64,000 nt of DNA from a virus. The stretch is from positions 249,866-313,865 of the IMG/VR virus record IMGVR_UViG_3300046092_000062; one strand, 5' to 3'. Shown piece by piece: positions 10,483-60,730 of this stretch. How positions within the stretch are numbered: position 1 is the stretch's first letter; each line of letters opens with the position of its first letter. The notes under the pieces are model-generated. The model was not told the origin of the DNA and did not search any database. It saw only the letters and a list, made by a program, of their open reading frames with translations. Made by a program: the position numbers and the translations under genes.

Positions 10483-11418
10483 ATGACTATGAAACTACAC
10501 GATGTTGTAGAGCTACAGCAAGCTCTTGTGGACTTAGTGCCTACCAAAGGCATCGAACACGAGATTGATGCTATAGTGGGCAATATTGATCTAATCAAGG
10601 GAAAGTACACAGAAGACTATGCCTACAGATTAGATCAATTGCAAACTAGCCTACGAGAAATTAAGGCTAGTTTGCATAAGCCGTTGGCTCTAGTAGACGA
10701 CATTAAAGATATTGTTGGACAAGACCTAACTGATGCTACTGCTAAGTTTGATGCAGTTGATTATCAAGATGAATTGCGTTATGCCAATGCAGAACGTATA
10801 CGTCAAGTACGTCAACTGTATGTGCCAAATGGTGCAGACGAAATTGTTACTAGGGCTATTGACTTATATGTTGATTGGCGCTATCCTGGATTGGAAATTG
10901 GTTGCCGTGACGGTCATTGGACCAAGTATCTAGTAAGTTGCGATCCATTGTACATTACAGATGTGTTCCAGGAATTTTTGGATAGCACCTCTAGTAACTA
11001 CCCTGAAGAGTACCAACAACGGTTGCGCCCATACTTGATCGAAAATCAAAATCTATCCATGCTACCACAGAATCAATTTGGTTTTGTGTTTAGCTGGAAC
11101 TTCTTTAACTACCTGACGTTAGCTAACATTAAACATTACCTAACACAAGTACTCACTCTGCTTCGGCCAGGTGGAACATTTATGTTCAGTTACAACAATG
11201 CAGATTTAGCAGCGGGTGCAGCGTATGCTGACAGCTACTTTATGAGCTATGCACCTAAGCATCTTCTAATTCCCATTTGCGAAGAACTTGGGTATGAAGT
11301 AATTGGTACAACTGATATTGAACCGGCAGTAAGTTGGTTAGAGATCAGAAAACCTGGCACACTTAAAATGATTAAAGCTCATCAAGTTTTAGGTGAAATA
11401 AAATACGTTAACCCTTGA
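10483..11418 (+). CDS. Class I SAM-dependent methyltransferase with N-terminal coiled coil, 311 aa
   Basis: Residues 1-110 are helical with coiled-coil character. From about 140 the Rossmann methyltransferase fold is seen: LEIGCRDGHW (motif I, SAM binding), FGFVFSWNFFNYL (motif IV region), and LLRPGGTFMFSYN (post-motif strand typical of methyltransferases of the UbiE/type 11 group). The substrate is unknown. It sits between polymerase and clamp genes, three bases after the polymerase stop. The same arrangement of a coiled coil plus methyltransferase is common for phage sugar or virion modifying enzymes (family knowledge, general). Confidence 0.7.
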   Translation: MTMKLHDVVELQQALVDLVPTKGIEHEIDAIVGNIDLIKGKYTEDYAYRLDQLQTSLREIKASLHKPLALVDDIKDIVGQDLTDATAKFDAVDYQDELRYANAERIRQVRQLYVPNGADEIVTRAIDLYVDWRYPGLEIGCRDGHWTKYLVSCDPLYITDVFQEFLDSTSSNYPEEYQQRLRPYLIENQNLSMLPQNQFGFVFSWNFFNYLTLANIKHYLTQVLTLLRPGGTFMFSYNNADLAAGAAYADSYFMSYAPKHLLIPICEELGYEVIGTTDIEPAVSWLEIRKPGTLKMIKAHQVLGEIKYVNP

Positions 11419-12199: not shown

Positions 12200-12825
12200 T
12201 GTCTTTAGGTCATCTGATACCTAGAGGATACCGTCCCGGTAGTGGGTTAATATCCCCTACTGGGATTTTCTATCTAAGTATCCCCAAGAATGCCAGCACA
12301 TATATGACCAACTTACTGGTTGCCAATGATTGGCGCCACAATGACGTATACAGTCCCGATATTAAGGAATGTATAGTTGTTCTACGTGATCCAGTTGATC
12401 GTTGGCTTAGCGGCTTTGCAACGTATGCAGCCAGCTGGTTGCTCGGGGAAGGATACGGCAGTGATCACTTTAGGGAAGACTACAATGATCTCACACAGCG
12501 AATCATCTTTGATCAAATTGTATTTGACGACCACACCACCGAACAAGTAAAATACGTTGAGCAACTAGGTGACCGTAAGATTACATTCTTTAAACTCAAT
12601 TACGAGTTAGGAATGAACTTAGAAAGTTTTTTAGATTGCAAGCTAGGTCTAAATAACCCTATAGCAGATAACGCAGGCGAAGACAATTACGATACTAAAA
12701 TGATTGCCAAGCACATGAGATTCAGAGTAGAACAAGATCCAGTTCTACGTGCTAAGATCATTGCGCGATATGCTGCTGACTACGAACTAATTAAAACAGC
12801 AAACTATTACAATGAGCCAAGATAA
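12199..12825 (+). CDS. Sulfotransferase family protein, 208 aa
   Basis: Both PAPS-binding elements of cytosolic and Golgi-type sulfotransferases are visible: IPKNAST with K30 (5'-phosphosulfate loop) and VLRDPVDRWLSGF with R63 and S71 (3'-phosphate binding). The family moves sulfate from PAPS to hydroxyl or amine groups, often of sugars. It overlaps dpdA by 14 bases and follows the clamp directly. A P-loop kinase at 52.0-52.4 kb could be related to PAPS supply, but no ATP sulfurylase is visible here. The acceptor is unknown. Confidence 0.8.
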   Translation: MSLGHLIPRGYRPGSGLISPTGIFYLSIPKNASTYMTNLLVANDWRHNDVYSPDIKECIVVLRDPVDRWLSGFATYAASWLLGEGYGSDHFREDYNDLTQRIIFDQIVFDDHTTEQVKYVEQLGDRKITFFKLNYELGMNLESFLDCKLGLNNPIADNAGEDNYDTKMIAKHMRFRVEQDPVLRAKIIARYAADYELIKTANYYNEPR

Positions 12826-14506
12826 TTTAACAAGCAAACAAAAAGATTACGCAGTATTCTTGCCAGCTATCAGTGGCTTCTACGGTACGTTTGTGGGCAA
12901 ACAGCGTGTTAACAATGACTATGTCGACCCAGCACGTTTCCCGCAAGGACTAACCGACATGGAGCAGATGAACTGGCTTAACGATCAAAAGGGCTTGTTC
13001 CCGTATAAGTGGAGTCTATATTCAGGTGGACATGCTAACTTGGATCTCACTAAAGAAGATGCAAGCGAAGACATGGTTCGCAAACGTGACCCAAACACTA
13101 TCCTGCTAGGTGACTCGGGAGGATTCCAGATTGCCAAGGGCTTGTGGGAAGGCGAGTGGCGTGATCTTAATAGCCAAGAAGTTAAAGACAAAATGGCCGC
13201 AATGGTAGCACTAGGTGTAGAAGTTAAGCCGGTGCTAGACAAAGCTGGTAACCCTGTTATTGGCAAGAAAGGTCCGAAGACTATCACAATCGACCATGCT
13301 AAAAACTATCAAAACTTAATTGATGCAGCACAAAAGAAACGTGGTGCTGTTCTAACGTGGTTAGATAGTATCAGCAATTACGGCATGGGATTGGATATTC
13401 CAACTTGGGTTATCCATGACAAGAAAGCCAGCGATGCGTGTGGTATTAAAACTCTTGACGAAGCTGTTGCAGCTACAAAGTATAACAACGAATACTTCAT
13501 GGCGCAACGCAAAGGCAAGAACAATGGCGGCGCTAAGTTCCTAAACGTGTTGCAAGGTGACAATCACAACAGTGCCGAAGATTGGTACCAAGTAATGAAA
13601 GAGTACTGTGATCCTGTTAAGTATCCTGATACACACTTTGATGGCTGGGCAATGGGAGGTCAAAACATGTGTGACGTACACTTGATTTTGAAACGTCTAG
13701 TAGCACTACGTTATGACAACTTACTACAAGAGGGCAAGCATGATTGGATGCACTTCTTGGGCACAAGTAAACTAGAGTGGGCTGTGTTGCTTACTGTTAT
13801 CCAGCGAGCTGTGAGAAAATATGTCAATCCTTCTTTTACTATCTCTTTTGATTGCGCTAGCCCTTTTCTTGCAACAGCTAACGGCCAGGTATACTTCGAA
13901 AACGTATTTCCGCACAACGGAAAGTGGAGCTACAGAATGGCTCCAAGTGCAGACGACAAAAAGTACGCCACTGACACACGCAAATGGTCAGACGGAGTGG
14001 TACAAGACGGCATTTACCCACGCTGGGAAGACAGTCCCCTTAGTGACATGTTTAAAATGAAAGATATTTGCATCTACAAGCCAGGCGATCTTAATAAGAT
14101 TGGCAAAGAAGGTGCAACATCATGGGACAGCTTTAGCTACGCATTGCTTATGGGACATAACGTATGGATGCACCTTACTGCGGTACAAGAAGCTAATAGA
14201 CGTTTTGATGCAGGCGAACATCCTGCTATGATGCGATCAGAAAAGCCACTTGCACCTTACTTTGAAGATATTGTCGAAGCTATTTTTGCAGCACCCGATC
14301 GTGAAACAGCAGAAGAGATTATTGAAATGTACGGCGGCCCCAATGGTTACTGGACTGAGATTATTGGCACTCGTGGATTTAAAGGCAAGAAGGCAGTAAG
14401 CGCTCGCCCAATGTTTGATAAACTATTTGACGTAGAAGATCCTGTCAATGACGACGACACTGAATTCAACGAAGCAGCACTAGACAACTTAGAGGATACA
14501 CAATGA
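12812..14506 (+). CDS. dpdA: DpdA-type DNA 7-deazaguanine transglycosylase (TGT superfamily), 564 aa
   Basis: Tri-helical TGT-type barrel features are visible: GDSGGFQ with D101 (base-recognition aspartate block), LTWLDSISN, LNVLQGDN, FDGWAMGG, and ISFDCASP with D347, the nucleophile block corresponding to FDC-x-PTR in tRNA enzymes. The C-terminal zinc site of tRNA-guanine transglycosylases is not seen, which is usual for phage DpdA. Known phage DpdA proteins exchange guanine in DNA for a 7-deazaguanine. FolE, QueD and QueE encoded at 20.1-27.5 kb supply the precursor. In the catalytic region (about 13.80-13.87 kb) synonymous codons become T-rich and a second frame opens. Confidence 0.9.
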   Translation: MSQDNLTSKQKDYAVFLPAISGFYGTFVGKQRVNNDYVDPARFPQGLTDMEQMNWLNDQKGLFPYKWSLYSGGHANLDLTKEDASEDMVRKRDPNTILLGDSGGFQIAKGLWEGEWRDLNSQEVKDKMAAMVALGVEVKPVLDKAGNPVIGKKGPKTITIDHAKNYQNLIDAAQKKRGAVLTWLDSISNYGMGLDIPTWVIHDKKASDACGIKTLDEAVAATKYNNEYFMAQRKGKNNGGAKFLNVLQGDNHNSAEDWYQVMKEYCDPVKYPDTHFDGWAMGGQNMCDVHLILKRLVALRYDNLLQEGKHDWMHFLGTSKLEWAVLLTVIQRAVRKYVNPSFTISFDCASPFLATANGQVYFENVFPHNGKWSYRMAPSADDKKYATDTRKWSDGVVQDGIYPRWEDSPLSDMFKMKDICIYKPGDLNKIGKEGATSWDSFSYALLMGHNVWMHLTAVQEANRRFDAGEHPAMMRSEKPLAPYFEDIVEAIFAAPDRETAEEIIEMYGGPNGYWTEIIGTRGFKGKKAVSARPMFDKLFDVEDPVNDDDTEFNEAALDNLEDTQ

Positions 14507-15006: not shown

Positions 15007-15188
15007 ACAATCTCAGTAAAGAGCAGTTACGTCTTGTGATTGCAGAAATGCGCCCAGACATCTCAGACAGCGACTTTGAAGCTATGTGGGAAGAAATGCA
15101 AACTGCATGTACTACTCACTACTCAGAAGTAGCAAACGAAGTCATTGACTTACATACCACAACCGACTCACAAGGAATTATTAGATGA
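15003..15188 (+). CDS. Small acidic protein, 61 aa
   Basis: ATG 15003 overlaps the preceding stop (ATGA). The frame opens earlier, to a TTG at 14973, but that would create a longer overlap without a ribosome site. The sequence is helical and acidic. Not recognised. Confidence 0.5.
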   Translation: MNNLSKEQLRLVIAEMRPDISDSDFEAMWEEMQTACTTHYSEVANEVIDLHTTTDSQGIIR

Positions 15189-15634
15189 GCCAACGAGACC
15201 AAGCACTAGCAGATAAGCGTGAGCGTATCATGCAACGTGCAGACCGACAAATTTGGGTAACCTTCAAGAAAGAAGGCATTCACAAATACCCAGCAGCAGC
15301 AACAGACCCAGCACTAGCAACAGGCGACGAATATGATGTTTCGTTCCTTGGCTTGCCACATCGTCATATCTTTCACTTCCGTGTATGGATTGACGTGTTT
15401 CACAATGACCGCGACATCGAGTTTATCCAATTTAAACGTTGGCTTGAAAACTTGTATGCCGGCGGTACGCTAGAGCTCAACTTTAAGAGTTGCGAAATGA
15501 TTGCAGATGATTTGTACACACAAATCAACACAAAGTATCCTGACCGCAGTGTCTGGATTGAAGTTGCCGAAGATGGTGAGAACGGCGCTTTAATTAAATA
15601 TGAATCTCACCGCCCACAACTGATTAGTATCTAA
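15185..15634 (+). CDS. Conserved T4-like phage protein, 149 aa
   Basis: Coupled by ATGA. Residues 50-85 read as a compact conserved core (FLGLPHRHIFHF, DRDIEFIQFKRWL), then SCEMIADDL and VAEDGENG. I believe close relatives exist in T4-like cyanophages but know no function. The His and Asp/Glu pattern could bind metal. Hypothetical. Confidence 0.55.
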   Translation: MSQRDQALADKRERIMQRADRQIWVTFKKEGIHKYPAAATDPALATGDEYDVSFLGLPHRHIFHFRVWIDVFHNDRDIEFIQFKRWLENLYAGGTLELNFKSCEMIADDLYTQINTKYPDRSVWIEVAEDGENGALIKYESHRPQLISI

Positions 15635-15911: not shown

Positions 15912-16319
15912 ATGAGCGCCGCAACTGACATGGGCCAAGCAGAGTTTGACCTACAACGGGTCATGGATCTGTTTGACACTGCCCTAACCAGTAAAGATGA
16001 GCGTGTAGTAAACGCCCTTCGCAGTCTGTTGATGATTGTGGCGCTTACCAATCCCGAAGACGCCGATGCTAAAGGTGATATCGGTCCACTACGTGCAATG
16101 GAACGTGATTTAAATTCCATGCACAGTCGTATTCGCAGTCTAGAAGACCAAGTACGCCATATTACTGATGCACTGTCTCAGCACAATACCGCTGCTCAAT
16201 CATATAACTCGTATAACTGGCGACCATCTAACCCTTATGCGAGAGATGTGTGGGGACAGGATAAGAGCAATATCACCATGCGCGATTACTTCACAAAAAT
16301 TAACGGAGGTCCCATTTAA
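15912..16319 (+). CDS. Helical protein with central coiled coil, 135 aa
   Basis: Starts two bases after the previous stop. Residues 55-95 have a heptad pattern typical of a coiled coil (AMERDLNSMHSRIRSLEDQ). The C-terminal part is Asn/Tyr/Arg-rich. The stop overlaps the next start (TAATG), with a strong GGAGG at 16305-16309 that serves the next gene. Not recognised. Confidence 0.5.
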   Translation: MSAATDMGQAEFDLQRVMDLFDTALTSKDERVVNALRSLLMIVALTNPEDADAKGDIGPLRAMERDLNSMHSRIRSLEDQVRHITDALSQHNTAAQSYNSYNWRPSNPYARDVWGQDKSNITMRDYFTKINGGPI

Positions 16320-17497
16320 TGGGTAAGCTATATTACATGGGGTTAGAGAGTTACAAAGCTCGCTACACCCTGCAACTAACAGAATGGAACAAACGTGTCT
16401 TTGATCGCCGTGGCGTTGAAGCAGTATATGTTCCAGGTCTAACACTAGATAACAGTCAAAAGATTGTTACAGGACAAGTACTGGACGCACACGGTCGCAG
16501 CTACTTTGGTATGAGCCAGATTATGAATTTGGTTCGATTAATGCAACAAGGAGCAGTGACTAAAGATGATGTTGTATATTTCGAAGACATGTTCCAACCA
16601 GGAATCGAAAGCCTACCCTACATCCTTAAACAAATCCCAGAGGCGTCGCGCCCAAGAATCTTTGTTCGTTGTCTCGCTCAGTCTATTGACCCTGACGATT
16701 TCGTACATGTTTGGGGAATGGGTGAATTTATGGGTCACTATGAACGCATGGTGGACAGCTTTGTTGATGGTGTGTTGGCCACTAATGAAGAAATGGTAAT
16801 GCACATGAAGATTGCAGGTTGGAAATCACCAATCTACAATATTTCAGGATTGGTGTTTAACACCGAAGAAGTGCAAGAGCGGGTGGGTAACAAGATTACT
16901 CCCTGGAATGAGCGCAAGCCCCGCGTGGTATTCTCTGCACGTTGGGACCAAGAGAAGCAACCAGACTTCTATATGGATGTAATCGAATCATGGCACAAAC
17001 GTCATCCCGGCTCAGGCGTGGAGTTTGCAGTATGCTCGGGTGCAACACTAAAGAGCAACAATGACAGCTACATGAAGCGCACACGTGATATGCAGGCAGC
17101 AGGCTCGTTGACCATTTACGAAGACCTAGAAAAGAATCAGTACTATGACATTGTTAATAACTCTCGTGTTGTTTTTAATTGTGCATTACAAGATTGGGTC
17201 TCCAATACTGTCTCCGAAGCTGACGCTTTGGGATGCAATGTACTTTATCCTGCTTATCGTTCTTTCCCTGAAACTTTTGCAAACGATCATACTCGCATGT
17301 ACGTTCCGTGGAGCATAGATGACGCATTAGACAAGTTGGAAAAACTGTTGCAGAAGCCAAGTGAGAACATGGGCAAGATTAGCGCATGGACTAGTGGCAC
17401 CGCTGATCGCATTGTTGACATTATTGAAGGCAAGGGCGAAAAGTGGTTGCGTATGTCAACTGACTATCGCAAACATACACATGAGTCTAAGTACTAA
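16319..17497 (+). CDS. GT-B fold glycosyltransferase (GT4-like), 392 aa
   Basis: The C-terminal half shows the GT-B nucleotide-sugar domain: RVVFSARWDQEKQPDFYMDVIE, a later GSLTIYEDLEKNQYYDIVNNSRVVFNCA, then the SNTVSEADALGCNVLYP donor-site helix with Glu. The family moves a sugar from a nucleotide donor to an acceptor. A strong GGAGG lies 10 bases before the ATG, the best ribosome site in this region, so it may be well expressed. In phages such enzymes modify DNA bases, host surface sugars or virions. Proximity to dpdA makes modified DNA a possible acceptor (inference). Confidence 0.75.
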   Translation: MGKLYYMGLESYKARYTLQLTEWNKRVFDRRGVEAVYVPGLTLDNSQKIVTGQVLDAHGRSYFGMSQIMNLVRLMQQGAVTKDDVVYFEDMFQPGIESLPYILKQIPEASRPRIFVRCLAQSIDPDDFVHVWGMGEFMGHYERMVDSFVDGVLATNEEMVMHMKIAGWKSPIYNISGLVFNTEEVQERVGNKITPWNERKPRVVFSARWDQEKQPDFYMDVIESWHKRHPGSGVEFAVCSGATLKSNNDSYMKRTRDMQAAGSLTIYEDLEKNQYYDIVNNSRVVFNCALQDWVSNTVSEADALGCNVLYPAYRSFPETFANDHTRMYVPWSIDDALDKLEKLLQKPSENMGKISAWTSGTADRIVDIIEGKGEKWLRMSTDYRKHTHESKY

Positions 17498-18534: not shown

Positions 18535-19518
18535 ATGTCAAAGACCGTTATTGTCACTGGCGGATGTGGGTACATTGGTAGTCACGTTGCACGGGCTTTC
18601 AAACAAGAAGGCTACGCCGTACACATTGTTGACACTGTTTACCGTGAACACACTGTCAAGGACATTGACGGTCATTTGATCAATTGCTTTGCTAGCAAAG
18701 CTGCACTCAGCATGTACATCATGCTGCAACCAGACATTATTGTGCATTGTGCAGGCACTAGTCTAGTTGGTCCAAGCATAACTAATCCAGCAGAGTATTA
18801 CGATAACAACGTTAGTAAGACTATTAAGATGCTGGATGTCTTAAAGGATTTACCAAAGCGTCCCACTATTATGTTTAGTAGTAGCGCCAGCGTGTATGGC
18901 GTCCCTAAAGAATCACCGATAACAATAAACAGCCCCTTACAGCCAATTAGCCCATACGGTTCAACTAAGATGATTGTTGAGCAAGTGCTAAAGGATTACG
19001 GCAGTGCATATGGATTCAACACCATTTGCTTTAGATATTTTAATGCTGCCGGCGCAGCGGCAACTGGTGACTTAGGGCAAGAACCTGATGCAACACATCT
19101 AGTTGCACGTACAGTTGAAGCAAGCCTAAGCGGCAGATTAGTTACTATCAATGGTGACGACTTTGACACACTAGATGGTACCTGCGTTCGTGACTACGTA
19201 CACGTTTGGGATATTGCCGTGGCACACACTAAGGCAGCGGAATTCTTTGCTATCCATTATGGCCCAGACACCATTGCTGGACATCATGTGTTTAACTTAG
19301 GCACTGGTAGCGGGTACAGTAACAAGGAAATTGTTGACTACGTTTACGAAACATACGGATTGACTACAGTCAAGTATGGCCCACGTAGACCCGGCGACCC
19401 AGACTTATTAGTAGCAGATCCATCGGTAGCTAACTCAGTATTGGGATGGTATCCAATTAACAGCAGTATAAAAAACATCATTGATACAGCATATAACTGG
19501 TACAAGAATCGTGTTTGA
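18535..19518 (+). CDS. galE: UDP-glucose 4-epimerase-like (GalE), 327 aa
   Basis: NAD-binding TGGCGYIGSH at the N-terminus, catalytic Y141-x3-K145 (YGSTK), FSSSASVYG, and the GalE signature CFRYFNAAGA followed by GDDFDTLDGTCVRDYVHVWD. Length is close to E. coli GalE (338 aa). It interconverts UDP-hexoses at C4. It starts immediately after the previous stop and overlaps a truncated aminotransferase, a pairing that recurs at 45.6 kb. Confidence 0.85.
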   Translation: MSKTVIVTGGCGYIGSHVARAFKQEGYAVHIVDTVYREHTVKDIDGHLINCFASKAALSMYIMLQPDIIVHCAGTSLVGPSITNPAEYYDNNVSKTIKMLDVLKDLPKRPTIMFSSSASVYGVPKESPITINSPLQPISPYGSTKMIVEQVLKDYGSAYGFNTICFRYFNAAGAAATGDLGQEPDATHLVARTVEASLSGRLVTINGDDFDTLDGTCVRDYVHVWDIAVAHTKAAEFFAIHYGPDTIAGHHVFNLGTGSGYSNKEIVDYVYETYGLTTVKYGPRRPGDPDLLVADPSVANSVLGWYPINSSIKNIIDTAYNWYKNRV

Positions 19519-20116
19519 TAAAATTAAGAAATTTGAACTTGCGCTAGCAGAATTTACTGGCGCACCATATGCAATCATGACCGATTGCTGCACACATGCA
19601 ATTGAACTGTGCCTACGATATGATAAGATCACTGAGTGCTCATTCACTCCTTACACGTATTTGAGCATCCCAATGACAATGCACAAGCTAGGCATCAACT
19701 ATAGCTACTTTCCAGACACGTTACCACATCGTCAACAATGGGTTGGTGAATACAAGTTTGAAGCTACTCGAATTTGGGACAGTGCAAGACGACTAGAAGA
19801 AAACATGTACCGTCCGGGAATGATGCAATGTTTAAGTTTTGGACATACAAAGCCTTTACACATTGGCCGCGGTGGTGCTATACTACTAGACGACAAGTCA
19901 GCATATGATGCGTTAATTTTAATGCGCTATGATGGACGCGACCTAAATATTAAACCATGGGAATCTCAGAAAGAATTCAGAGTTGGGTATCACTATAAAC
20001 CCACGCCAGAAGAAGCAGTACAAGGACTTGCACTACTACAGGGCGTTAAGGTTAATAAACCCAAACCAGTAACAGTTGAGTACCCAGACCTAAGAACAAT
20101 CACTATCAAGGACTAA
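19511..20116 (+). CDS. Truncated DegT/DnrJ-type PLP aminotransferase, 201 aa, GTG start
   Basis: The likely start is GTG 19511, overlapping galE by 8 bases; the frame also opens at TTG 19481. The middle matches the PLP-lysine region of DegT enzymes: SFGHTKPLHIGRGGAILLDD, with the Lys of HTKPL corresponding to the Schiff-base lysine. Full members are 360-400 aa (compare 369 aa at 46533), so the C-terminal half is missing, yet the frame is intact without a frameshift. It may be a minimal active form or a degenerate copy. Substrate would be a nucleotide keto-sugar. Confidence 0.6.
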   Translation: MFDKIKKFELALAEFTGAPYAIMTDCCTHAIELCLRYDKITECSFTPYTYLSIPMTMHKLGINYSYFPDTLPHRQQWVGEYKFEATRIWDSARRLEENMYRPGMMQCLSFGHTKPLHIGRGGAILLDDKSAYDALILMRYDGRDLNIKPWESQKEFRVGYHYKPTPEEAVQGLALLQGVKVNKPKPVTVEYPDLRTITIKD

Positions 20117-20117
20117 A

Positions 20118-20819
20118 ATGACAGATACAAGTAAAAACTTATCACAAGTTATTCGCGACAAGATGCGAGCAGACAACAAACGCTTCTGGGCGGGCGACAA
20201 CATCAGTGAGTATGTTGGCGAAGAAGAAAAAGAATCGTTAATTAGCGAAGCAGCAGAAGCATTTGAAAAAGTACTTGACACACTATTGATTGACCGCGAA
20301 AATGATCCGAACTCAAAAGGCACAGCAAGGCGTCTTGCAAAAATGTACTACAACGAAATTATGGCTGGGCGGTACGATGCAAGCCCTAGCGCAACTGCGT
20401 TTCCCAATGATAGCGATGGCGCATACGACGGAATGTTGGTTGTGCGCAGTGAGCTTAAAAGCATGTGTAGCCACCATCACCAACCTGTTACGGGTGTGGC
20501 TTACATTGGCATTATTGCTGGACAGAAACTCATCGGACTATCGAAGTATACCAGGATTGCACAGTGGTGCGCAAGACGAGGAACACTACAAGAAGAGCTC
20601 TGTATGGACATCGCTCGTGAGATTGAACTTGCAACTGGATCACAAGACGTTGCAGTTTATATTCAGGCTACCCACGGATGTTGTGAGAATCGTGGTATCA
20701 TGGCTCACTCTAGTCTTACTCAGACCACAGTACTACGCGGAGCCTTTAAAGAAGACGCAAGCGTAAAGAAAGAGTTCTTTGACAACATCAAATTGCAACA
20801 AGAGTTTGCACCACGCTAA
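20118..20819 (+). CDS. folE: GTP cyclohydrolase I, 233 aa
   Basis: Converts GTP to dihydroneopterin triphosphate, the first step of both folate and 7-deazaguanine synthesis. Zinc ligands are visible: C117 and H120 in SMCSHHH, and C188 in THGCCENRG. Other hallmark segments present: GLSKYTRIAQWCARR, TLQEEL and the C-terminal SLTQTTVLRG. Length fits the family (about 220 aa). It belongs with QueD and QueE at 25.6-27.5 kb and DpdA at 12.8 kb as one pathway. Confidence 0.93.
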   Translation: MTDTSKNLSQVIRDKMRADNKRFWAGDNISEYVGEEEKESLISEAAEAFEKVLDTLLIDRENDPNSKGTARRLAKMYYNEIMAGRYDASPSATAFPNDSDGAYDGMLVVRSELKSMCSHHHQPVTGVAYIGIIAGQKLIGLSKYTRIAQWCARRGTLQEELCMDIAREIELATGSQDVAVYIQATHGCCENRGIMAHSSLTQTTVLRGAFKEDASVKKEFFDNIKLQQEFAPR

Positions 20820-20828
20820 GGAAACAAC

Positions 20829-21044
20829 ATGAACGCCGCAGACATGACAACAGCACTAATCAATCGTGCAAAGGTATTAAACGAGTTTATGGTCACTACT
20901 GAAGTGCCCAACGACTTTAGATTCAACGGGATGGTGCCATTTGATATGCAAATTAAAGATGGTATTATTTACGCACATGTTTGGGGCGTTGACTTTGACG
21001 AAGCGTGTATGCGTTTAGATCAATTTTTAGACACCTGCAAATAA
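20829..21044 (+). CDS. Small hypothetical protein, 71 aa
   Basis: AAGGAAA precedes the ATG. An N-terminal helix is followed by a strand-rich half (FNGMVPFDMQIKDGIIYAHVWG). Not recognised. It lies between folE and a cupin-like gene. Confidence 0.5.
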   Translation: MNAADMTTALINRAKVLNEFMVTTEVPNDFRFNGMVPFDMQIKDGIIYAHVWGVDFDEACMRLDQFLDTCK

Positions 21045-21052
21045 AGGCAGCT

Positions 21053-21511
21053 ATGAAGCAGTGGATTCTCAACTGGCTTGAAGCACACGGTCGCAAACGT
21101 ATTGTTATGGACCGTGTAAACAATGAACCTTATCTAGAACGTTACTATGTATTCCTTAAAGACCGTGAGAATTTTCCCTTTAACATTTTTCTGCACAAGT
21201 TTCTTAAGTCAGATCCCGATGACGTGCATGATCATCCTTGGAATTACCGAACTCTTATCTTAAAGGGCGGGTACTGGGAATGGCAACCCCAGTTTAACAG
21301 CAAAGGTCACAAAGTTGGTGAGATTGCAACATGGCGCGGTGCCGGATCATTCCGTAGTGCAAAAGCCAACAGCTATCATCGCATCGAGCTTGATCCCAAT
21401 GTGGAATGTTGGACATTGTTTATGCCAGGACGCAAGCGACGCGAATGGGGTTTCCTTAGTAAAGGCACATGGGTACAATGGCAAAAATATCTAGCAACCA
21501 GATCACAATAA
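21053..21511 (+). CDS. Cupin-like (RmlC-type fold) protein, 152 aa
   Basis: ATG 21053 is chosen; the frame is open upstream to a GTG at 21005 inside the previous gene. The core HDHPWNYRTLILKGGYWE, with two His and a later Glu, followed by SYHRIELD and CWTLFMPG, matches the two metal-binding blocks of cupins. Members include sugar epimerases and dioxygenases. It sits between FolE and a Rieske oxygenase, consistent with small-molecule chemistry, but the substrate is unknown. The stop overlaps the next start (TAATG). Confidence 0.65.
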   Translation: MKQWILNWLEAHGRKRIVMDRVNNEPYLERYYVFLKDRENFPFNIFLHKFLKSDPDDVHDHPWNYRTLILKGGYWEWQPQFNSKGHKVGEIATWRGAGSFRSAKANSYHRIELDPNVECWTLFMPGRKRREWGFLSKGTWVQWQKYLATRSQ

Positions 21512-21816: not shown

Positions 21817-22151
21817 TTGCACTACCACCAGGATGCACTGTAACCTATGCAGTATGGATTGACGTTAAGGAAATGACCACTGAACTTATCGAGTGGTGCG
21901 AACTAGTTGGTGGCCGTAAGAAAGTCGACAGCTACTACAATCATCGTGGCAACAAAGTCGATACAGAGTACATTGCATTTGGAAAAGCCAAGTGGTGTCA
22001 CTATCATCAAAATGGCAATGGTGGTGTACGCCTACACTTTCACGGCGACGATGCTTCAACTGCGAGCATGTTCTTGCTCAAGTTTATGGACAACGTAACC
22101 GCACACAATTTAAAAGAAGTACAAGATAGAGTAGAACATGGATTTGTTTAA
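21813..22151 (+). CDS. Hypothetical protein, 112 aa
   Basis: Coupled by ATGA; its end overlaps the Rieske gene by 14 bases. It has a His-rich middle (KWCHYHQNG, RLHFHGDD), which could bind metal. Not recognised. Possibly a partner of the Rieske oxygenase, by position only. Confidence 0.5.
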   Translation: MIALPPGCTVTYAVWIDVKEMTTELIEWCELVGGRKKVDSYYNHRGNKVDTEYIAFGKAKWCHYHQNGNGGVRLHFHGDDASTASMFLLKFMDNVTAHNLKEVQDRVEHGFV

Positions 22152-22959
22152 AGGACCAGTGCCGCGACTGTTTGGGCACAAAGATAGTTTAAAAGATAAC
22201 AAGTTTTTTGCATCCAACAAGTTTGTTATTAACCAACAGTTTGAAGCATTTACTAACATCTGTCCGCATCGCGGATTTCCTATTTTGCAGCCATCTGGTG
22301 TAGCAGACAACATGCGCTGCGAGCTACACGGATGGCAATGGAACGATGACGGGACACCTGCTAATAACTCAGCGTGTTTAAAGCCACGTAGGCTCACAGT
22401 AGGCAAAAGCGGGCTGATGTTTATGGACTGGCAAGAACCCTCTGATGCTAAATGGGTTAACGATTTGGCTAATGATTCGTTTACGTATAGTCATAGCACA
22501 CGCCGAACTGGCACCGGTGATTGGAAGTGGCAAATGGAAATGCACGTGGATCTGCTGCACGTTGACAAGATTCATCCTTTGCTAACCAGTTACGTAGATA
22601 TAAACAAACTTCAAACTGAATACGGTAGTGATTGGGTGTGCCAGCACCACGAACACGGATGGTGGTTATTTGTGTATCCATTTACTCATATTGAATGGGA
22701 ACCAGGATGCTTGTACTTTAGTGAAATGGTGCAGACAAACTACGGGTACGAGGTATACATCCATTACTTGTTTAACGAGTCTACTCCGCAGCATGTGCGT
22801 GAAAACTTTATCAAAGTAGCAGAAGTTACATTCGACGAAGACGTGGACGCAGTTAATCGACTATCTCTAAACAATAAATACAGAACACCATCAAAAACTC
22901 TTGACCCACTGGAAGTAGATATTAAGCACTTCTATGATTGGTATAAGGCAAACACATAA
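22138..22959 (+). CDS. Rieske non-heme iron oxygenase (alpha-subunit type), 273 aa
   Basis: The N-terminal Rieske [2Fe-2S] site is complete: C42-x-H44 in ICPHRGF and C61-x2-H64 in RCELHGW. The C-terminal domain has the mononuclear iron motif D138-x2-H141-x4-H146 and a later acidic D233-E-D235 segment that could supply the carboxylate ligand. Such enzymes use O2 and electrons from a reductase to hydroxylate or demethylate a substrate. At 273 aa it is shorter than ring-hydroxylating subunits (about 350-450 aa). No reductase is encoded nearby, so host electron donors would be needed. It directly overlaps the first of three PP-loop genes. Confidence 0.85.
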   Translation: MDLFKGPVPRLFGHKDSLKDNKFFASNKFVINQQFEAFTNICPHRGFPILQPSGVADNMRCELHGWQWNDDGTPANNSACLKPRRLTVGKSGLMFMDWQEPSDAKWVNDLANDSFTYSHSTRRTGTGDWKWQMEMHVDLLHVDKIHPLLTSYVDINKLQTEYGSDWVCQHHEHGWWLFVYPFTHIEWEPGCLYFSEMVQTNYGYEVYIHYLFNESTPQHVRENFIKVAEVTFDEDVDAVNRLSLNNKYRTPSKTLDPLEVDIKHFYDWYKANT

Positions 22960-23852
22960 TGTACTGTAGAAACAATTGGCTCACTTATTCGTTTGGCGGA
23001 AACCCTCGCCGTATTCGCGATGAGGATCTTACTGTACAATTTACTGAGCAAGCAGATAAGATAATTCCTCTAGACGAAGTAGCGCAAGCGACTGCAAAAG
23101 AAATACACTCATTATACCCAGACATTTATGTTGCAATGAGCGGAGGGTGCGATAGCGAGTATGTAGCAAAGAGTTTTAAGGCCGCCGGAGTTCCATTTAA
23201 AGCCATTACAATGACTTGTAAAGGATACCTTGTAATCGGCGAATGGTATACTAAAAAATGGTGCGACGAAAATGATGTTGAACTAATCAAATTCGAAGTT
23301 GATCCGTTTGAATTATTAGAATACGGTAAACGCACTGTGGGAAGAATCAAGGGCATTAGCTGGTTTGGCTCCACTGTTAATTTAGTAGCAAACGAAGTAG
23401 AACGACGAGGGGGTTACTTAGTAACCGGAGCATTGCCATCGTACTACCCTGATCCAAAATTAAGATTAGACAAAGCAGATCCTGAATTTGTTAAAACATT
23501 TCGTGGATTCATGTTTGACGAAAGTGACTTCTACATAGAATTAGTAAACCCAAATAAGCATCCTTGGGCGTTCTTTTACTGGTCGCCCGAAATGTTGGCT
23601 AGTGTGATATACCATTGGGACACTTCTCAGCCAGTAGAGGACAACAAATGGCGCATGTTTAATGTGCTGCCTAGACCAAAACTAACTGGTTGCGAATTCT
23701 TCACGCACAATCATATAGCCAAGACTCTTCCCGAGTACAACAATTATTTCAAATGGACGTATGCTCACCGCTCACTAAAATGGGGCGCGAGAGATTTTGC
23801 ACCTTGCCCTGACAGAGAAGAATTCTTAAAAATATTATGTCGGCCCCAATAA
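22959..23852 (+). CDS. PP-loop (N-type) ATP pyrophosphatase family protein 1, 297 aa
   Basis: The ATP PP-loop AMSGGCDSEYVAK is near residues 58-70. The class adenylates a carboxyl, carbonyl or similar group, as in asparagine synthetase, QueC, and GMP or NAD synthetases. No C-terminal CxxC zinc cluster of QueC is seen, and there is no N-terminal glutaminase domain as in AsnB. A conserved HPWAFFYWSPE segment near residue 203 is shared with the two following genes (HPGAFF). TAATG overlap with the Rieske gene implies co-translation. Confidence 0.7.
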   Translation: MYCRNNWLTYSFGGNPRRIRDEDLTVQFTEQADKIIPLDEVAQATAKEIHSLYPDIYVAMSGGCDSEYVAKSFKAAGVPFKAITMTCKGYLVIGEWYTKKWCDENDVELIKFEVDPFELLEYGKRTVGRIKGISWFGSTVNLVANEVERRGGYLVTGALPSYYPDPKLRLDKADPEFVKTFRGFMFDESDFYIELVNPNKHPWAFFYWSPEMLASVIYHWDTSQPVEDNKWRMFNVLPRPKLTGCEFFTHNHIAKTLPEYNNYFKWTYAHRSLKWGARDFAPCPDREEFLKILCRPQ

Positions 23853-24691
23853 CAATTAGTGCCGGTCATAAGAACTGGTACTCAGTTACTCTAACGCCAT
23901 TGCAGCATCCAGAGACTTCTACAGTCAGTATGAGCTTTGGTCACACAGAAGTCGATGGTACGCTAACTTTCCAAGCTGCGGCCGATTATACTGCAAAGTT
24001 AATTGCGGCTCAATGCTCTAATCTCTATCTAGCAATGAGCGGAGGGCTTGACAGTGAGTTTGTAGCCGAAGTACTTTATCGCAATGGTATTCAATTTACT
24101 CCAATTGTTGCGATAACGCCCGACAACGTAGAAACTCATTGTGCATTGCACTGGTGCAAATTGCATAACTTAGATCCAGTGATACTTACATTTGTTGAAA
24201 ACGATCCTCGACTGATTAGACAGTTTAGATTAATAGCAAAAGAATTAAAACAAGCAACAGGCTTATCTAATATAGTGGCTTACTTAGCAGAGTACGTTAA
24301 AGAACTAGGTGGACAATTATTAGTAGGTGATAGCCCGTTTGGCGGCCCTACTAGCAGTTATTACCAAGCGTCTGGTGAAATATTTGAAATTGATTGGCAC
24401 TCATTTATTACAGAATTTATGCAACCTAATTCACATCCCGGTGCCTTCTTCCAGTACACCCCAGAGTTGTTTTTGGCTATGGCAAAAGAGCTTAATATCA
24501 CTATTAGTGAATCTGCAGGCAAGGCTGAGTTGTATGAAATTCCGTTTAAGCCCAAGGACCCAAACCCGGCTCTTCCTATATCACTAGCAGTTAGTAAACA
24601 GTTAGCAGAATTTGCAGGTGTAGGTATGTATTGTTTCTTCCCGCCGCTTAAATGGCACAAAGACCAATTGATTAAGTTATTGTCAAAATGA
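23837..24691 (+). CDS. PP-loop ATP pyrophosphatase family protein 2, 284 aa
   Basis: Paralogue of the genes on either side: LAMSGGLDSEFVAEVLYRNG (PP-loop about residue 60), then HPGAFFQYTPELFLAMAKEL near 198. It overlaps the previous gene by 16 bases. Protein 3 is much closer to it than protein 1, so a recent tandem duplication is likely. No zinc-binding cysteine cluster. Confidence 0.7.
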   Translation: MSAPITISAGHKNWYSVTLTPLQHPETSTVSMSFGHTEVDGTLTFQAAADYTAKLIAAQCSNLYLAMSGGLDSEFVAEVLYRNGIQFTPIVAITPDNVETHCALHWCKLHNLDPVILTFVENDPRLIRQFRLIAKELKQATGLSNIVAYLAEYVKELGGQLLVGDSPFGGPTSSYYQASGEIFEIDWHSFITEFMQPNSHPGAFFQYTPELFLAMAKELNITISESAGKAELYEIPFKPKDPNPALPISLAVSKQLAEFAGVGMYCFFPPLKWHKDQLIKLLSK

Positions 24692-25536
24692 AAATTGGAC
24701 ACAACGGCTGGGCGTCTATTAACTTAGAAAGAGATAACCTAGTAAACATAACAGCACCCTTTGAATTCACTACTACCGCTGTGCCTGTAGCAATGACATT
24801 CACCAAAGCTGCTGATTACACTGCACAGTTAATTGCAACCAAGTACACTAACCTGCACTTGTGCCTAAGTGGTGGACTTGATAGTGAGTTTGTGGCTAAA
24901 GTGTTGGTTAGAAACAGCATACCATTTACCCCAGTAATAGTGGCTGCTGACTATGTGGATGCAGAAAATTGGTACGCTTACAAATTCTGCCAAGACAATA
25001 AGTTAACTCCGCTGGTATTAGATTTTGCTGGAAAAGAAAAGCATATCGAGTTAGTTAAGATGCTCATTGCACATGCACACAAACATTGCTTACCATTTGA
25101 TAGATCATTGATTGTAAACGTTGTTGCTACCCTACTACCAGAAGCGCATATAATAACGGGATACGGAGATCCTGTACATGTTTCGTCTACGTTTTACGAG
25201 CCAATTGGCCCATTGGTAGAATTAACAGACCACGATTACTTTCTGGACGTAGAATACGGAACTAAACACCCCGGTGCATTTTTTTCGTATACTCCCGAGT
25301 TATTTGCTTCTTTGATTAAGGAGCTTGATATAACCAAAAATAGTCAAATGGCAAAAGCCGAACTGTATGGTATTCTGTGTAGATCAAAAATACAATCATC
25401 CTTTTTTAACTTTTACCATTTACCCGAACTTGAATTTATTATCAAAAAGAGTTTAGACAAATTAGGTAAAAACCCACTACACCAAGCGTTCTTTATAAAT
25501 AGAGATACACTACTCAATCAGTTAAGCGGCCTTTAG
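24688..25536 (+). CDS. PP-loop ATP pyrophosphatase family protein 3, 282 aa
   Basis: LCLSGGLDSEFVAKVLVRNS (PP-loop about residue 59) and HPGAFFSYTPELFASLIKEL near 195. The start overlaps the previous stop (ATGA). The C-terminal part differs from protein 2 (a longer Phe-rich tail), hinting at different partners or substrates. About 60 bases of non-coding sequence then precede QueD. Confidence 0.7.
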   Translation: MKIGHNGWASINLERDNLVNITAPFEFTTTAVPVAMTFTKAADYTAQLIATKYTNLHLCLSGGLDSEFVAKVLVRNSIPFTPVIVAADYVDAENWYAYKFCQDNKLTPLVLDFAGKEKHIELVKMLIAHAHKHCLPFDRSLIVNVVATLLPEAHIITGYGDPVHVSSTFYEPIGPLVELTDHDYFLDVEYGTKHPGAFFSYTPELFASLIKELDITKNSQMAKAELYGILCRSKIQSSFFNFYHLPELEFIIKKSLDKLGKNPLHQAFFINRDTLLNQLSGL

Positions 25537-25597: not shown

Positions 25598-26095
25598 ATG
25601 ACACCCGTTCAATACAAATACACCAGTACCAAAGAGTACCACAACGCCTTTCCTGTTGCTTACAGACAATGGCGAGCAGACAGCCACTGCAATCTAATTC
25701 ACGGCTATGCGTTTAGCATGAAGTTCTATTTTGGAACCAATGACCTAGACGTTCGTAACTGGGCTGCTGACTACGGCGGCCTCAAGGAACTGAAGAAAAC
25801 ACTAGAAGATCAATTTGACCATACATTGATTGTGGCACAGGATGATCCAGAAATGGAAACATTCAAATTGCTACAAGAAAAGAACATGGCCAAGATTGTA
25901 GTGTTGCCAGCACTAGGTTGCGAAGCACTAAGCGATATGCTTTACAAGTATGTCAATGGCGTTTACATTCCTGAGATGTGGGGACCAGGTGAAGCGGCAC
26001 GTTTATGGTGCTATCGCGTTGAAGTACGTGAAACACAGAGCAACATGGCGTACCGCGAAGGTCACCGTGAATGGAATGAGGACTTGTTTGCATGA
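25598..26095 (+). CDS. queD: 6-carboxytetrahydropterin synthase (QueD/PTPS family), 165 aa
   Basis: Second step of 7-deazaguanine synthesis (dihydroneopterin triphosphate to carboxytetrahydropterin). The family pattern is visible: VAYRQW, SHCNLIHGYAF, WAADYGGLK, DQFDHTLIV, with a C-terminal VEVRETQSN. Two places differ from the usual zinc ligands: AAHR is AYRQ-like and HGH reads HGY. I believe this HGYA variant recurs in phage and proteobacterial relatives, so it may be a natural subfamily with another ligand set. AGGAGA precedes the ATG. Coupled to the next gene (ATGA). Confidence 0.8.
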   Translation: MTPVQYKYTSTKEYHNAFPVAYRQWRADSHCNLIHGYAFSMKFYFGTNDLDVRNWAADYGGLKELKKTLEDQFDHTLIVAQDDPEMETFKLLQEKNMAKIVVLPALGCEALSDMLYKYVNGVYIPEMWGPGEAARLWCYRVEVRETQSNMAYREGHREWNEDLFA

Positions 26096-26388
26096 GCAAG
26101 CAGGAACAAGAAATCATGGATATTCTGCAAGAAGAATGTGCAGAAGTAATCCAAGCAGTTAGCAAAGCCCGTCGATTTGGCCTAGATAACTCTCACAAGT
26201 CTGGTAAGACACAGCGTCAGAATCTAGAAACAGAAATAGGCGATGTGCTTTGCATGATTGAACTGCTAAATGAGCGTGGAGTAATTGACGCCTCTAGCGT
26301 ACAAGCTGCTATCCTTGCCAAGCGAGAAAAGCTACACCACTGGTCAAATATTTTTAAGGATGACTCATGCACCCCAACATCGAAGTAA
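26092..26388 (+). CDS. MazG-like nucleotide pyrophosphohydrolase, 98 aa
   Basis: Metal-binding pattern EExxE (E14, E15, E18) and ExxD (E48, D51) matches the all-alpha NTP pyrophosphohydrolase (MazG-like) superfamily. These hydrolyse NTPs or dNTPs, sometimes to remove unmodified nucleotides or to alter (p)ppGpp levels. It sits between queD and queE. Overlaps the next gene by 22 bases. Confidence 0.75.
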   Translation: MSKQEQEIMDILQEECAEVIQAVSKARRFGLDNSHKSGKTQRQNLETEIGDVLCMIELLNERGVIDASSVQAAILAKREKLHHWSNIFKDDSCTPTSK

Positions 26389-26586: not shown

Positions 26587-27459
26587 ATGTTTGGAACAAA
26601 TGAAATTATTGGTAAGAAGTATTTTAAGGATGCTCCGGCAGACAGCTTGTTTGTAACTAGCATGTTCTTTACACTACAAGGCGAAGGTCCTTATGCAGGT
26701 ATGCCCGCATTGTTTATTCGATTGGCTAAGTGTAATCTAGTGTGCAGCTTCTGTGATACATTCTTTGACGACGGTGATTGGATGACGTACGATCAAATCG
26801 AAGGCAAAATGTATGCAGCTATCAACGACTATTGGAACAACCAAGGCAAAGCAACGCCAACATGGGCAAACAATGGGTTAAATAACTATCCCGGTATTGT
26901 GTTGGTAATGACTGGCGGCGAACCTCTCCTGCAGGAGAACATTAGTGCATTTATGACACGTCAACTTGCACATTTCAAGGCAGTTCAGGTCGAAAGTAAC
27001 GGCATTCCTGTTACTGATGTTCCTGCCGGTGTAACGCTAGTGTGTAGCCCTAAATGTGCTGAGAAAGATGGCAAGGCCATCAAGTACTTTGCGCCGTCGG
27101 CAACTATCCTGCAACGTGCAGACTGTTTGAAGTTTGTTATGAGTGCGGATGCAGATAGTCCGTATAACAGCGTACCGCAGTGGGCACATGACTGGAAGGC
27201 AGCAACAGGCAAAGAGATCTATTGCAGCCCGATGAACGTGTACAACAGTTTCCCACAGAAGATCAAATTGCTTCGTGCAGAAAAAGGCAACATCACAATG
27301 GCTGAACGCAGCACAGTTGATGAAGTTATCAGCTTCTGGGAACCGGGCTTGTTGGACTTGAAAGCTAACCAAGCTAACCATGAGTACGCTGCACACTATT
27401 GCATCGAACATGGTTTCAAACTCAACCTGCAAATGCACTTATATGCGAGCCTAGCATAA
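26587..27459 (+). CDS. queE: 7-carboxy-7-deazaguanine synthase (radical SAM), 290 aa
   Basis: C49-x3-C53-x2-C56 (CNLVCSFCDT) is the radical SAM cluster motif in the QueE arrangement, preceded by TLQGEGPYAGMPALFIRLA and followed by VMTGGEPLLQE near residue 110. The enzyme rearranges carboxytetrahydropterin to 7-carboxy-7-deazaguanine. The insertion between the cluster and GGEP (about 40 residues) is longer than in E. coli. QueD and FolE are in the same gene set. No QueC with a zinc cluster was found to convert the product to preQ0. Confidence 0.9.
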   Translation: MFGTNEIIGKKYFKDAPADSLFVTSMFFTLQGEGPYAGMPALFIRLAKCNLVCSFCDTFFDDGDWMTYDQIEGKMYAAINDYWNNQGKATPTWANNGLNNYPGIVLVMTGGEPLLQENISAFMTRQLAHFKAVQVESNGIPVTDVPAGVTLVCSPKCAEKDGKAIKYFAPSATILQRADCLKFVMSADADSPYNSVPQWAHDWKAATGKEIYCSPMNVYNSFPQKIKLLRAEKGNITMAERSTVDEVISFWEPGLLDLKANQANHEYAAHYCIEHGFKLNLQMHLYASLA

Positions 27460-52799: not shown

Positions 52800-52999
52800 T
52801 CTCTTCCCCAAATAATTTTGTTCCAGACACGTTCGTGTATAAAATATAACACGGTGTTAATTACTAATTGTGTTGATGCTATTGCTCCGGCTATTTGAAG
52901 GTTGCCGAGTACCAAATACGATATCAATAAAGTTGATGCCGTACCGGTTACTCTCCAACTAATAGTCTTAGCAATGCTTCTACCAGTCGCTTCAGTCAT
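52796..52999 (-). CDS. DUF2061 membrane protein, 67 aa
   Basis: Two hydrophobic helices and YFIHERVWNKIIWG at the end, matching the paralogue at 27634. ATGA-coupled to the carbamoyltransferase and nucleotidyltransferase. Function unknown. Confidence 0.65.
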   Translation of the reverse strand: MTEATGRSIAKTISWRVTGTASTLLISYLVLGNLQIAGAIASTQLVINTVLYFIHERVWNKIIWGRE

Positions 53000-54483
53000 G
53001 AACAGACCTTTACGCCATACAACTGTTCGAATCTATCTGCATCTGCACGATCGTTTACCATTGGTTCCCCACGTATGTTAAGACTTGTGTTTAACAACAT
53101 AGGGCACCCTGTCATCACGTACCATTTTTCGAGCAGCTCTCTAATGCCGCTTCCATCTTTTGGCACTGTCTGTACACGACTAGTTCCGTCAGCGTGAACG
53201 ATAGCAGGAAATAGGTCAGGAACCCTACACCTAGCGACTGACTGCATATACCTACTATGCTCGAACCCACGAGGCATATCAAAGTAAGTATCAGCCAGTT
53301 CTTCCAAAATAACTGGCGCAAAGGGTCTGAATTGTTGTCTACGTTTGATGTCATTTACTTTCTCCTTAATCTCGCTGCCTCTAGGATCTGCAAGCAGGCT
53401 TCTGTTTCCAAGTGCTCTTGGACCGAACTCGGCTCTCCCGGAAGCCACTCCCACAATTTGCCGAGTAAGTAACTCGTCCAGAACGTCGTTAACAGGGTAA
53501 GGGCCAGGAATATTATGCCCGAGATAAGCGTCATGCCAGTTAAGGGCACCCCCATAAGCCAGAGCGGCAGCACCAAGGCTACTGCCAGCATCCCCAGGGT
53601 TAGGCATAATCCATATATTCTCAAAGTAGTTTCCTATACGTGCATTTGCTGCACAGTTTAAAGCGCATCCGCCCATGTATACAAGGTTGTCACTCCACTT
53701 AAATTGCTTTGCGCGAAGCATGACGTTGAGAATCAAATCCTCAGCCAGGTCCTGTGCTGCGGCCGCAATATCCATGTCACTAAAGTTAGACAGGTACTTT
53801 GTACTCATGCCCATGTGCAAGTTTTCTTTAAACTTGATTTCCCATTCGTCGGATACCAAGTCTAGCTTCATTATGTCTTTAGCATATCCGCCACCATAAG
53901 CAGCCATGCCCATTAGAATGTATTCTTCGTCTAGTGGGCGTAGGCCAACGAGCTTAGTAGCTCCAGTATAAAAGAGTCCGATTGAATGTGGGTAATTCTG
54001 TTGCCAAAGTCGCTTATAAGTTGCTTTACCGTTGCTATCATATTCTGCTCCCCAAATTGAGATAGTTTCAAATTCACCAATGGCGTCAATAACAACTACT
54101 GTGGCCTTGTTGAAACTGCTGGTCTGAAATCCCGCTGCTGCATGGCTCAGATGATGATTGTAGTTCTTATAGTACTTTAGATCCCACCACTTGGCATGCC
54201 CAATCTGCTTATGCACAAGTTTCTTAACGCTGAGCTTATCCCACTCGAATCCTTGTCCTGCATAAGCCTGACGCAACTGCTTATATAGAGGACGTTCGTA
54301 ATAAGCCACGGTCTGGATGGGATTGTATTCCTCGAGCTTACGAATAAGTGGACTACAGAAATTAGCATCTGACTTTGACTTACTATATCTTTCGGAATGA
54401 CTGGCGAAAAGGATGTTCCCATCTTCGTCTAATACTGTTGCGGCTGCGTCATGATAACCAGCCGAGATGCCTAATATGTTCAT
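52996..54483 (-). CDS. Carbamoyltransferase (TobZ/NodU family), 495 aa
   Basis: ISAGYHDAAA at the N-terminus, HHLSHAAAGF, GGCALNCAAN, NPGDAGSSLGAA, GRAEFGPRALGNRS and the C-terminal LNTSLNIRGEPMV are all present, so the protein is complete. The family uses carbamoyl phosphate and ATP to carbamoylate sugar or antibiotic hydroxyls; phage members have been proposed to act in DNA hypermodification. The sugar-modifying neighbours fit either role. ATGA overlap with the DUF2061 gene. Confidence 0.9.
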   Translation of the reverse strand: MNILGISAGYHDAAATVLDEDGNILFASHSERYSKSKSDANFCSPLIRKLEEYNPIQTVAYYERPLYKQLRQAYAGQGFEWDKLSVKKLVHKQIGHAKWWDLKYYKNYNHHLSHAAAGFQTSSFNKATVVVIDAIGEFETISIWGAEYDSNGKATYKRLWQQNYPHSIGLFYTGATKLVGLRPLDEEYILMGMAAYGGGYAKDIMKLDLVSDEWEIKFKENLHMGMSTKYLSNFSDMDIAAAAQDLAEDLILNVMLRAKQFKWSDNLVYMGGCALNCAANARIGNYFENIWIMPNPGDAGSSLGAAALAYGGALNWHDAYLGHNIPGPYPVNDVLDELLTRQIVGVASGRAEFGPRALGNRSLLADPRGSEIKEKVNDIKRRQQFRPFAPVILEELADTYFDMPRGFEHSRYMQSVARCRVPDLFPAIVHADGTSRVQTVPKDGSGIRELLEKWYVMTGCPMLLNTSLNIRGEPMVNDRADADRFEQLYGVKVCS

Positions 54484-54994
54484 TTATTTTATCTGCTATT
54501 CTTTGATGACCTAGCTCCAGCGGATGCCCGCCAGGTCCTTTAGGGCAATCGCCCATCCACTCTACCATACTGCCCGGTATCCAATTGCCTACATTGCAAT
54601 TAGGAACATCAAACGTTCTTACGAATACATAAGGTATATTGCGATCACGCAAGTACGCATCTAACATTAACACTTGCGTAAAAAACTTTGTCTTGGCCCA
54701 TTCTTCGTCCCAATCTAAAAATACATGATCGCAAATTGATCCATACTTTCTATGACTACTTGGAGTAAGGTGTTGTCCGTTTACTTCTATCCTATTAGGA
54801 GTAGTCCATGCAATAATTGCATAGGTTGGGTAATGATTCTCCACTGCGACTACAGTAGACTTAATGATTGCATCATTACTGTAGCCTGGCTGAGCTCTAT
54901 TCATAACAGGGCAGTCTAATAACTCTGGCCACGGTTTTTGGCCGTTTGTTAGTTCTTCCCCGTATGTAAAGCTGTCGCCGTTAACAAACATCAT
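54449..54994 (-). CDS. SGNH-hydrolase-like protein, 181 aa
   Basis: GDSFTYGEEL has the candidate nucleophile serine; PGYSND the Gly/Asn block, and GGHPLELGHQRIAD the His block. Likely an esterase or acyltransferase. Overlaps the carbamoyltransferase by 35 bases. Confidence 0.65.
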   Translation of the reverse strand: MMFVNGDSFTYGEELTNGQKPWPELLDCPVMNRAQPGYSNDAIIKSTVVAVENHYPTYAIIAWTTPNRIEVNGQHLTPSSHRKYGSICDHVFLDWDEEWAKTKFFTQVLMLDAYLRDRNIPYVFVRTFDVPNCNVGNWIPGSMVEWMGDCPKGPGGHPLELGHQRIADKINEHIRHLGWLS

Positions 54995-55015
54995 TTGTAT
55001 ATAAATGGATCGCGC

Positions 55016-60702: not shown

Positions 60703-60730
60703 TATAGTGAATTATAGTGAATTATAGTTG
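60701..60730. repeat. Tandem decamer repeat, three copies
   Basis: ATTATAGTGA occurs twice and then ATTATAGTTG once, in the gap between radical SAM copies 3 and 4. On the minus strand each unit contains TATAAT, so the array could act as repeated -10 elements, or simply reflect slippage. Confidence 0.7.

Follow-up and report, generated by a model that had tools for sequence, protein, structure and literature searches.

A Rieske oxygenase and three asparagine-synthetase-like PP-loop proteins as a possible tailoring module of a QueC-less 7-deazaguanine gene cluster in a large phage

Analysis of a 64,000-nucleotide stretch (the window; positions 249,866 to 313,865) of the 320,767-nucleotide IMG/VR virus record IMGVR_UViG_3300046092_000062 revealed a cassette of four genes coding for a Rieske non-haem iron oxygenase and three PP-loop proteins (PP1, PP2 and PP3; window positions 22138-25536, plus strand). 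The cassette is embedded in a 7-deazaguanine-type gene cluster, with folE on one side and the queD, mazG and queE genes on the other. While the gene-level description of the cassette and the cluster can be given with high confidence, its function is proposed more tentatively: we favor, at somewhat under an even chance for the mechanism in full, the interpretation that it provides optional tailoring steps within a phage 7-deazaguanine system for DNA modification that has no QueC.

The four open reading frames are uninterrupted, and code respectively for the Rieske protein (22138..22959, 273 residues), PP1 (22959..23852, 297 residues), PP2 (23837..24691, 284 residues) and PP3 (24688..25536, 282 residues). 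Examination of the junctions showed that each stop overlaps the next start, in order through TAATG, a 16-nucleotide overlap and ATGA, and that the start of the Rieske gene itself overlaps the gene upstream of it. A preliminary description of this DNA, made from its letters alone, had recognized one complete Rieske oxygenase followed by three tandem PP-loop paralogues, which the intact frames and the full set of metal ligands bear out; it had also stated that the genes are translationally coupled, which the overlaps render plausible. Two related contigs (240 and 354 kb) have kept the cassette, and a second Rieske gene is seen there between queD and mazG. Comparison with these contigs yielded dN/dS values of 0.02-0.10 for all four genes, indicating purifying selection, with the PP-loop genes diverging the fastest.

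The Rieske protein matches the Pfam profile PF00355 over its cut-off (E=2.3e-9). Across 22 phage homologues the [2Fe-2S] ligands C42, H44, C61 and H64 (CxH...CxxH) are invariant, as are the 2-His-1-carboxylate residues of the mononuclear iron site (D138xxH141xxxxH146, together with D235). Its closest solved sequence relative is the carnitine monooxygenase CntA (6e-15), and the saxitoxin-pathway oxygenases SxtDIOX and SxtT are also among the nearest. The metal sites of these enzymes and of the phage protein are alike, although the phage proteins are shorter (about 275 residues) and have no reductase in their vicinity. Going by its conserved residues, the phage oxygenase looks competent.

The three PP-loop proteins show a mutual identity of 24-38%, which marks them as paralogues, and have in common the motifs SGG[LC]DSE, containing the SGGxDS loop of the asparagine-synthetase class, and HP[GW]AFF, which corresponds to the shared HPxAFF motif of the preliminary description. 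The wider family keeps just the PP-loop and portions of the second motif. As that description had also claimed, the zinc site of QueC and the glutaminase are missing, with neither the motif C(x)8CxxCxxC nor a glutaminase-type Met-Cys start in any of the 87 family members. QueC is likewise a PP-loop ATPase found within FolE/QueD/QueE clusters, but PP1-PP3 differ from it in the missing zinc motif, added N-terminal strands and an asparagine-synthetase-type fold; given the absent motif and the lack of any PF06508 match at E<=1 in the 321-kb record, we rejected their identification as QueC. A pattern scan of 84,980 bacterial and archaeal genomes confirmed no relatives of the family.

An AlphaFold2 (AF2) model of PP2 (predicted local distance difference test score, pLDDT, 92.7), in which the PP-loop domain has only about 45 residues in front of it, retrieved asparagine, beta-lactam and carbapenam synthetases as the top solved folds in VIA comparisons (Z 13-14 over 240-250 residues, at 10-15% identity), while NAD synthetase and LarE followed at Z 9-10 over about 160 residues. 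The nearest folds thus include the synthetase domain of asparagine synthetase B, though the phage proteins are without the N-terminal glutaminase-type domain of these enzymes. Domains of this type adenylate a carboxylate and then transfer it to an amine. The modeled synthetase-type fold of PP2, combined with the missing QueC zinc site and glutaminase, suggests that the PP-loop proteins are amide ligases comparable to CmoY. The latter is an asparagine-synthetase homologue of Synechococcus phage S-B43 that joins glycine to 5-carboxymethylcytosine (5cxmC) in phage DNA (PMC12783734). Like PP1-PP3 it is a small asparagine-synthetase-type PP-loop protein without a glutaminase domain that is encoded beside DNA-modification genes, and its length is similar (271 versus 282-297 residues). 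Unlike them, it adjoins CmoA and CmoX, has 5cxmC as its substrate and has no oxygenase partner. A plain CmoY system was rejected for the present phage, as phmmer searches found no match to CmoA or CmoX in the 321-kb record.

The enzymes FolE, QueD and QueE lead to 7-carboxy-7-deazaguanine (CDG), an analogue of guanine whose 7-carboxylate is free, and DpdA puts 7-deazaguanines into DNA. The first three have counterparts around the cassette, all on the plus strand: FolE (GTP cyclohydrolase I; 20118..20819; PF01227, 4.9e-40), a QueD-like protein of the phage type (25598..26095; PF01242, 1.1e-14; phrog_2389, 5e-35) and a QueE-like radical S-adenosylmethionine (SAM) CDG synthase (26587..27459; phrog_2076, 3.9e-46; TIGR03963, 4.6e-19). 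Between the last two lies a gene for a MazG-type nucleoside triphosphate pyrophosphohydrolase (26092..26388; phrog_4856, 5.3e-22). Searches with PF01702, the profile of the tRNA-guanine transglycosylases (TGTs), and with the DpdA of phage 9g had suggested that the phage has no DpdA; this was overturned by motif, context and fold. The preliminary description had proposed looking for co-occurrence with DpdA, and we find that the same cluster contains a gene (12812..14506, plus strand), which it had left unnamed, for a divergent 564-residue protein that we take as a DpdA-type enzyme with a TGT fold. Its motifs DSGGFQ and SFDCASPFLATANG (SFDCASPF) match the two catalytic-aspartate contexts of TGTs, and the aspartates concerned, D101 and D347, are invariant in 10 sequences. 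An hhalign comparison with E. coli Tgt gave E=0.001 with colinear motifs (FDC..P...A.NG aligned), and one with a phage DpdA profile was weak (E=0.006). An AF2 model of the protein has low confidence (pLDDT 57); even so, all 50 VIA matches listed are TGTs, with a best Z of 9.2 over 262 aligned residues. Plain Foldseek gave only weak matches, 1j2b being ranked fifth (E=0.57), and the sequence profile retrieved nothing useful from the PDB. As PF01702, a profile that may miss divergent phage DpdA proteins, matched neither the record nor the two related contigs at E<=1, we keep to the name "DpdA-type"; the gene array suggests that the enzyme acts on DNA. Homologues of this protein occur in Pseudomonas phage PA5oct, close to queE, and in Vibrio phage 2.275.O, in the vicinity of queC, queF, folE and queD genes. 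We found no paper that describes such a DpdA family.

By uniting a TGT-fold transglycosylase with FolE, QueD and QueE in a single array the cluster resembles the phage DpdA pathway with QueC or Gat-QueC, e.g. that of phage 9g (PMC6884629). It departs from the latter in being without QueC or Gat-QueC, in its highly divergent DpdA, and in the addition of a T-fold protein, a glycosyltransferase and the Rieske and PP-loop genes. QueC (PF06508) had no match in the 321-kb record or the two related contigs; in an additional 13 cassette-bearing records no match passed the curated threshold.

A search of the viral collection with the DpdA candidate recovered at least 572 matching stretches, from which we examined the closest 80 loci (74 distinct; not a random sample). 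Most of these share an order of methyltransferase, DpdA, T-fold protein, glycosyltransferase, epimerase, aminotransferase and FolE, followed by QueD if the locus extends that far, and none has QueC, though most of the contigs are fragments in which the absence of a gene is weak evidence outside long records. Querying in turn with the families of the PP-loop and Rieske proteins revealed two genomic contexts: 1) FolE-QueD intervals that hold one to three PP-loop genes, frequently accompanied by Rieske genes; 2) Rieske/PP-loop pairs located elsewhere, at about 30 distinct loci. Where a locus of the first type has a single PP-loop gene it is either PP2-like or PP3-like, and the PP2/PP3 clade is seen only between folE and queD; PP1 belongs to a divergent clade whose members are found 3' of a Rieske gene here and in one other viral contig (L004). 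The PP-loop proteins of the first context group on the tree, with 3 label changes as against 20 in shuffles. At four of its loci a membrane fatty-acid-hydroxylase-type gene lies immediately 5' of the PP-loop gene. Among 24 Rieske genes gathered by a Rieske-only search, 21 adjoin a PP-loop gene, compared to 4.8 expected and a maximum of 12 in 5000 simulations. Searches of isolate phages with blastn and tblastn found no match to the cassette.

With gene content, folds, conserved active-site residues, purifying selection and linkage established computationally, the preferred reading of the cassette as a tailoring module can be laid out as follows. FolE, QueD and QueE would supply CDG, which the DpdA-type transglycosylase would exchange for guanine in DNA. 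The PP-loop proteins, as the synthetase half of an asparagine synthetase without the half that makes ammonia, would adenylate the 7-carboxylate of CDG and couple it in the manner of CmoY to an amine (ammonia, a small amine or an amino acid), either before or after insertion; the presence of three ligases suggests successive or alternative amines. The Rieske enzyme would then hydroxylate the amine part or the conjugate with electrons from the host. From the known chemistry of CDG, DpdA and asparagine-synthetase-type domains we infer everything after the making of CDG, both the amidation and the hydroxylation: that CDG is the acid which is amidated, which amine it receives, in what order the reactions proceed, where the hydroxyl is placed and that the product ends up in DNA. 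The idea of the preliminary description that these genes, together with the adjacent pathway, could make a further modified base remains the leading reading, strengthened by the DpdA-type enzyme in a 7-deazaguanine cluster and by a carboxylate-activating amide-ligase fold, and tempered by the optional nature of the cassette and the presence of such pairs elsewhere.

Several observations weigh against this reading. Of the 13 sampled DpdA loci that reach QueD, just one has PP-loop genes in its FolE-QueD interval, because of which we regard the cassette as an optional accessory that the core steps of the array do not need. The folE-queD interval of the relatives instead holds varied, unrelated genes, which on reading their sequences resemble cytidylyltransferases, kinases, sulfotransferases and oxidases. 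The second-context pairs have no Que genes in their surroundings of up to 20 kb and often have genes for DesA-type desaturases, acyl carrier protein (ACP), AcpS, FabZ and ketoacyl synthase instead, so that the Rieske-ligase pair is not bound to DNA modification as such. Given both the clusters without a cassette and the pairs in fatty-acid-type clusters, the target of the present cassette is put forward as a proposal. The hhalign match between CmoY and the PP-loop family (P=9e-4) covers 78 residues, i.e. the PP-loop core alone. Lastly, the ferredoxin profile PF00111 has no match in the 321-kb record, because of which we look to the host, where partners are possible, for the electron donors. 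The preliminary description had stated that its proposal would be refuted by cassettes in phages without any DNA-modification genes, together with proteins that align best to unrelated families. What we find is a local absence at the second-context loci: among their records longer than 150 kb, five of six carry the DpdA array elsewhere, and in the stretches read that array has no PP-loop genes within it.

The acyl-gene context is also the chief support for an alternative that we consider unlikely, if the most serious of its kind, namely that the oxygenase and the ligases act in producing or modifying some small molecule, or an amide resembling a lipid, that is unrelated to DNA, with the folE-queD interval, which varies among relatives, serving as a cargo hot spot. 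It has to contend with the confinement of PP2 and PP3 to a clade of their own in the deazaguanine cluster, where no acyl-chain genes are seen in the present phage. Still less probable is that PP2 or PP3 stands in for QueC, which performs ATP-dependent amide chemistry on CDG, and converts CDG and ammonia to 7-amido-7-deazaguanine (and perhaps preQ0), with the Rieske enzyme acting separately. The absence of QueC from the records and the loci with a lone PP2-like or PP3-like gene are as this predicts, but a single-step replacement leaves three copies unexplained, and the fold of PP2 is closer to asparagine synthetase than to the other PP-loop enzymes listed. Moreover, the DpdA locus sampling, where most relatives have neither QueC nor a PP-loop gene in the cluster, led us to downgrade a mandatory replacement. 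Least probable of all is a role in decorating virion or cell-surface sugars, with a PP-loop sugar amidotransferase and a Rieske sugar or aminosugar oxygenase working alongside the neighboring epimerase-, aminotransferase- and glycosyltransferase-like products. In its favor are these neighbors and a match of PP1 to the sugar amidotransferase WbuX, but that match (E=0.04) falls far short of the threshold, and the sugar genes are part of the core DpdA array, which is conserved without the cassette, and may glycosylate the base instead.

If the tailoring interpretation holds, the carboxylate-handle strategy known for cytosine from 5cxmC and CmoY would extend to guanine, there joined by an oxidative step, and QueC-less deazaguanine clusters would be explained. 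The broader notion that guanine in phage DNA undergoes a hypermodification of a new class, in which the CDG carboxylate is ligated to amines by dedicated asparagine-synthetase-like PP-loop proteins and hydroxylated by a Rieske enzyme, with the same pair building different amides in other large phages, strikes us as possible though doubtful. We found no paper on phage Rieske enzymes and no description of a Rieske and three-ligase combination in a deazaguanine cluster; to our knowledge no Rieske enzyme has previously been implicated in nucleic-acid modification, and this would be the first. The widespread DpdA array, unrecognized as TGT by Pfam, would enlarge the known set of guanine-replacing phages, and the phage-specific Rieske and PP-loop pair offers a concrete target for enzyme searches.

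Other genes of the array, all on the plus strand, code for a methyltransferase (10483..11418; PF08242, 3.2e-9), which is a core DpdA neighbor, as are a 149-residue T-fold-like protein (15185..15634; phrog_17812; 57 of 74 DpdA loci) and a glycosyltransferase-like protein (16319..17497; 54 of 74 loci; PF00534, 7e-5, and PF13524, 6e-5, both under the curated cut-off). They are followed by genes for a protein conserved in the cluster and named from its sequence as sugar-nucleotide epimerase-like (18535..19518), a short DegT-type aminotransferase-like protein (19481..20116; phrog_3139, 3.5e-5) and a cupin-type protein of a "cysteine dioxygenase" PHROG (21005..21511; phrog_4786, 1.6e-41). The 149-residue protein has invariant histidines and a weak likeness to T-fold proteins and QueD, and is likely to be a missing piece of the deazaguanine pathway. 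The phage QueD keeps Cys31, D74-H75 and the glutamate, while two of the three zinc histidines are apparently replaced (AYR, HGY) in 10 of 10 relatives aligned, judged against what we take to be the E. coli QueD reference residues. Several such clusters (L029:8734-9297, L134, L136 and L137) have a phosphoribosyltransferase gene, which is not present in the cluster here and hints at a nucleotide-level route.

Some of the large phages recovered (L067, L071-L073, L077, L093 and L099) have Rieske and/or PP-loop genes beside genes for DesA-type desaturase, ACP, AcpS, FabZ, ketoacyl synthase and GNAT proteins, an apparent phage acyl-chain biosynthetic cluster. A short QueC-like protein (about 205 residues; TIGR00364, E=1e-7) is encoded near Rieske/PP-loop pairs in others (L061-L063, L050 and L074). 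The record itself codes for three additional, larger PP-loop proteins of ~400 residues with an SGGADS motif beyond the window (record coordinates 69032-70240, 151137-152324 and 211186-212394), whose counterparts in other phages adjoin genes for TctC-type substrate-binding proteins. Finally, the minus strand of the window at 52996-63446 codes for a NodU-type carbamoyltransferase, SGNH-like proteins and five consecutive paralogues resembling SPASM/twitch radical SAM enzymes.

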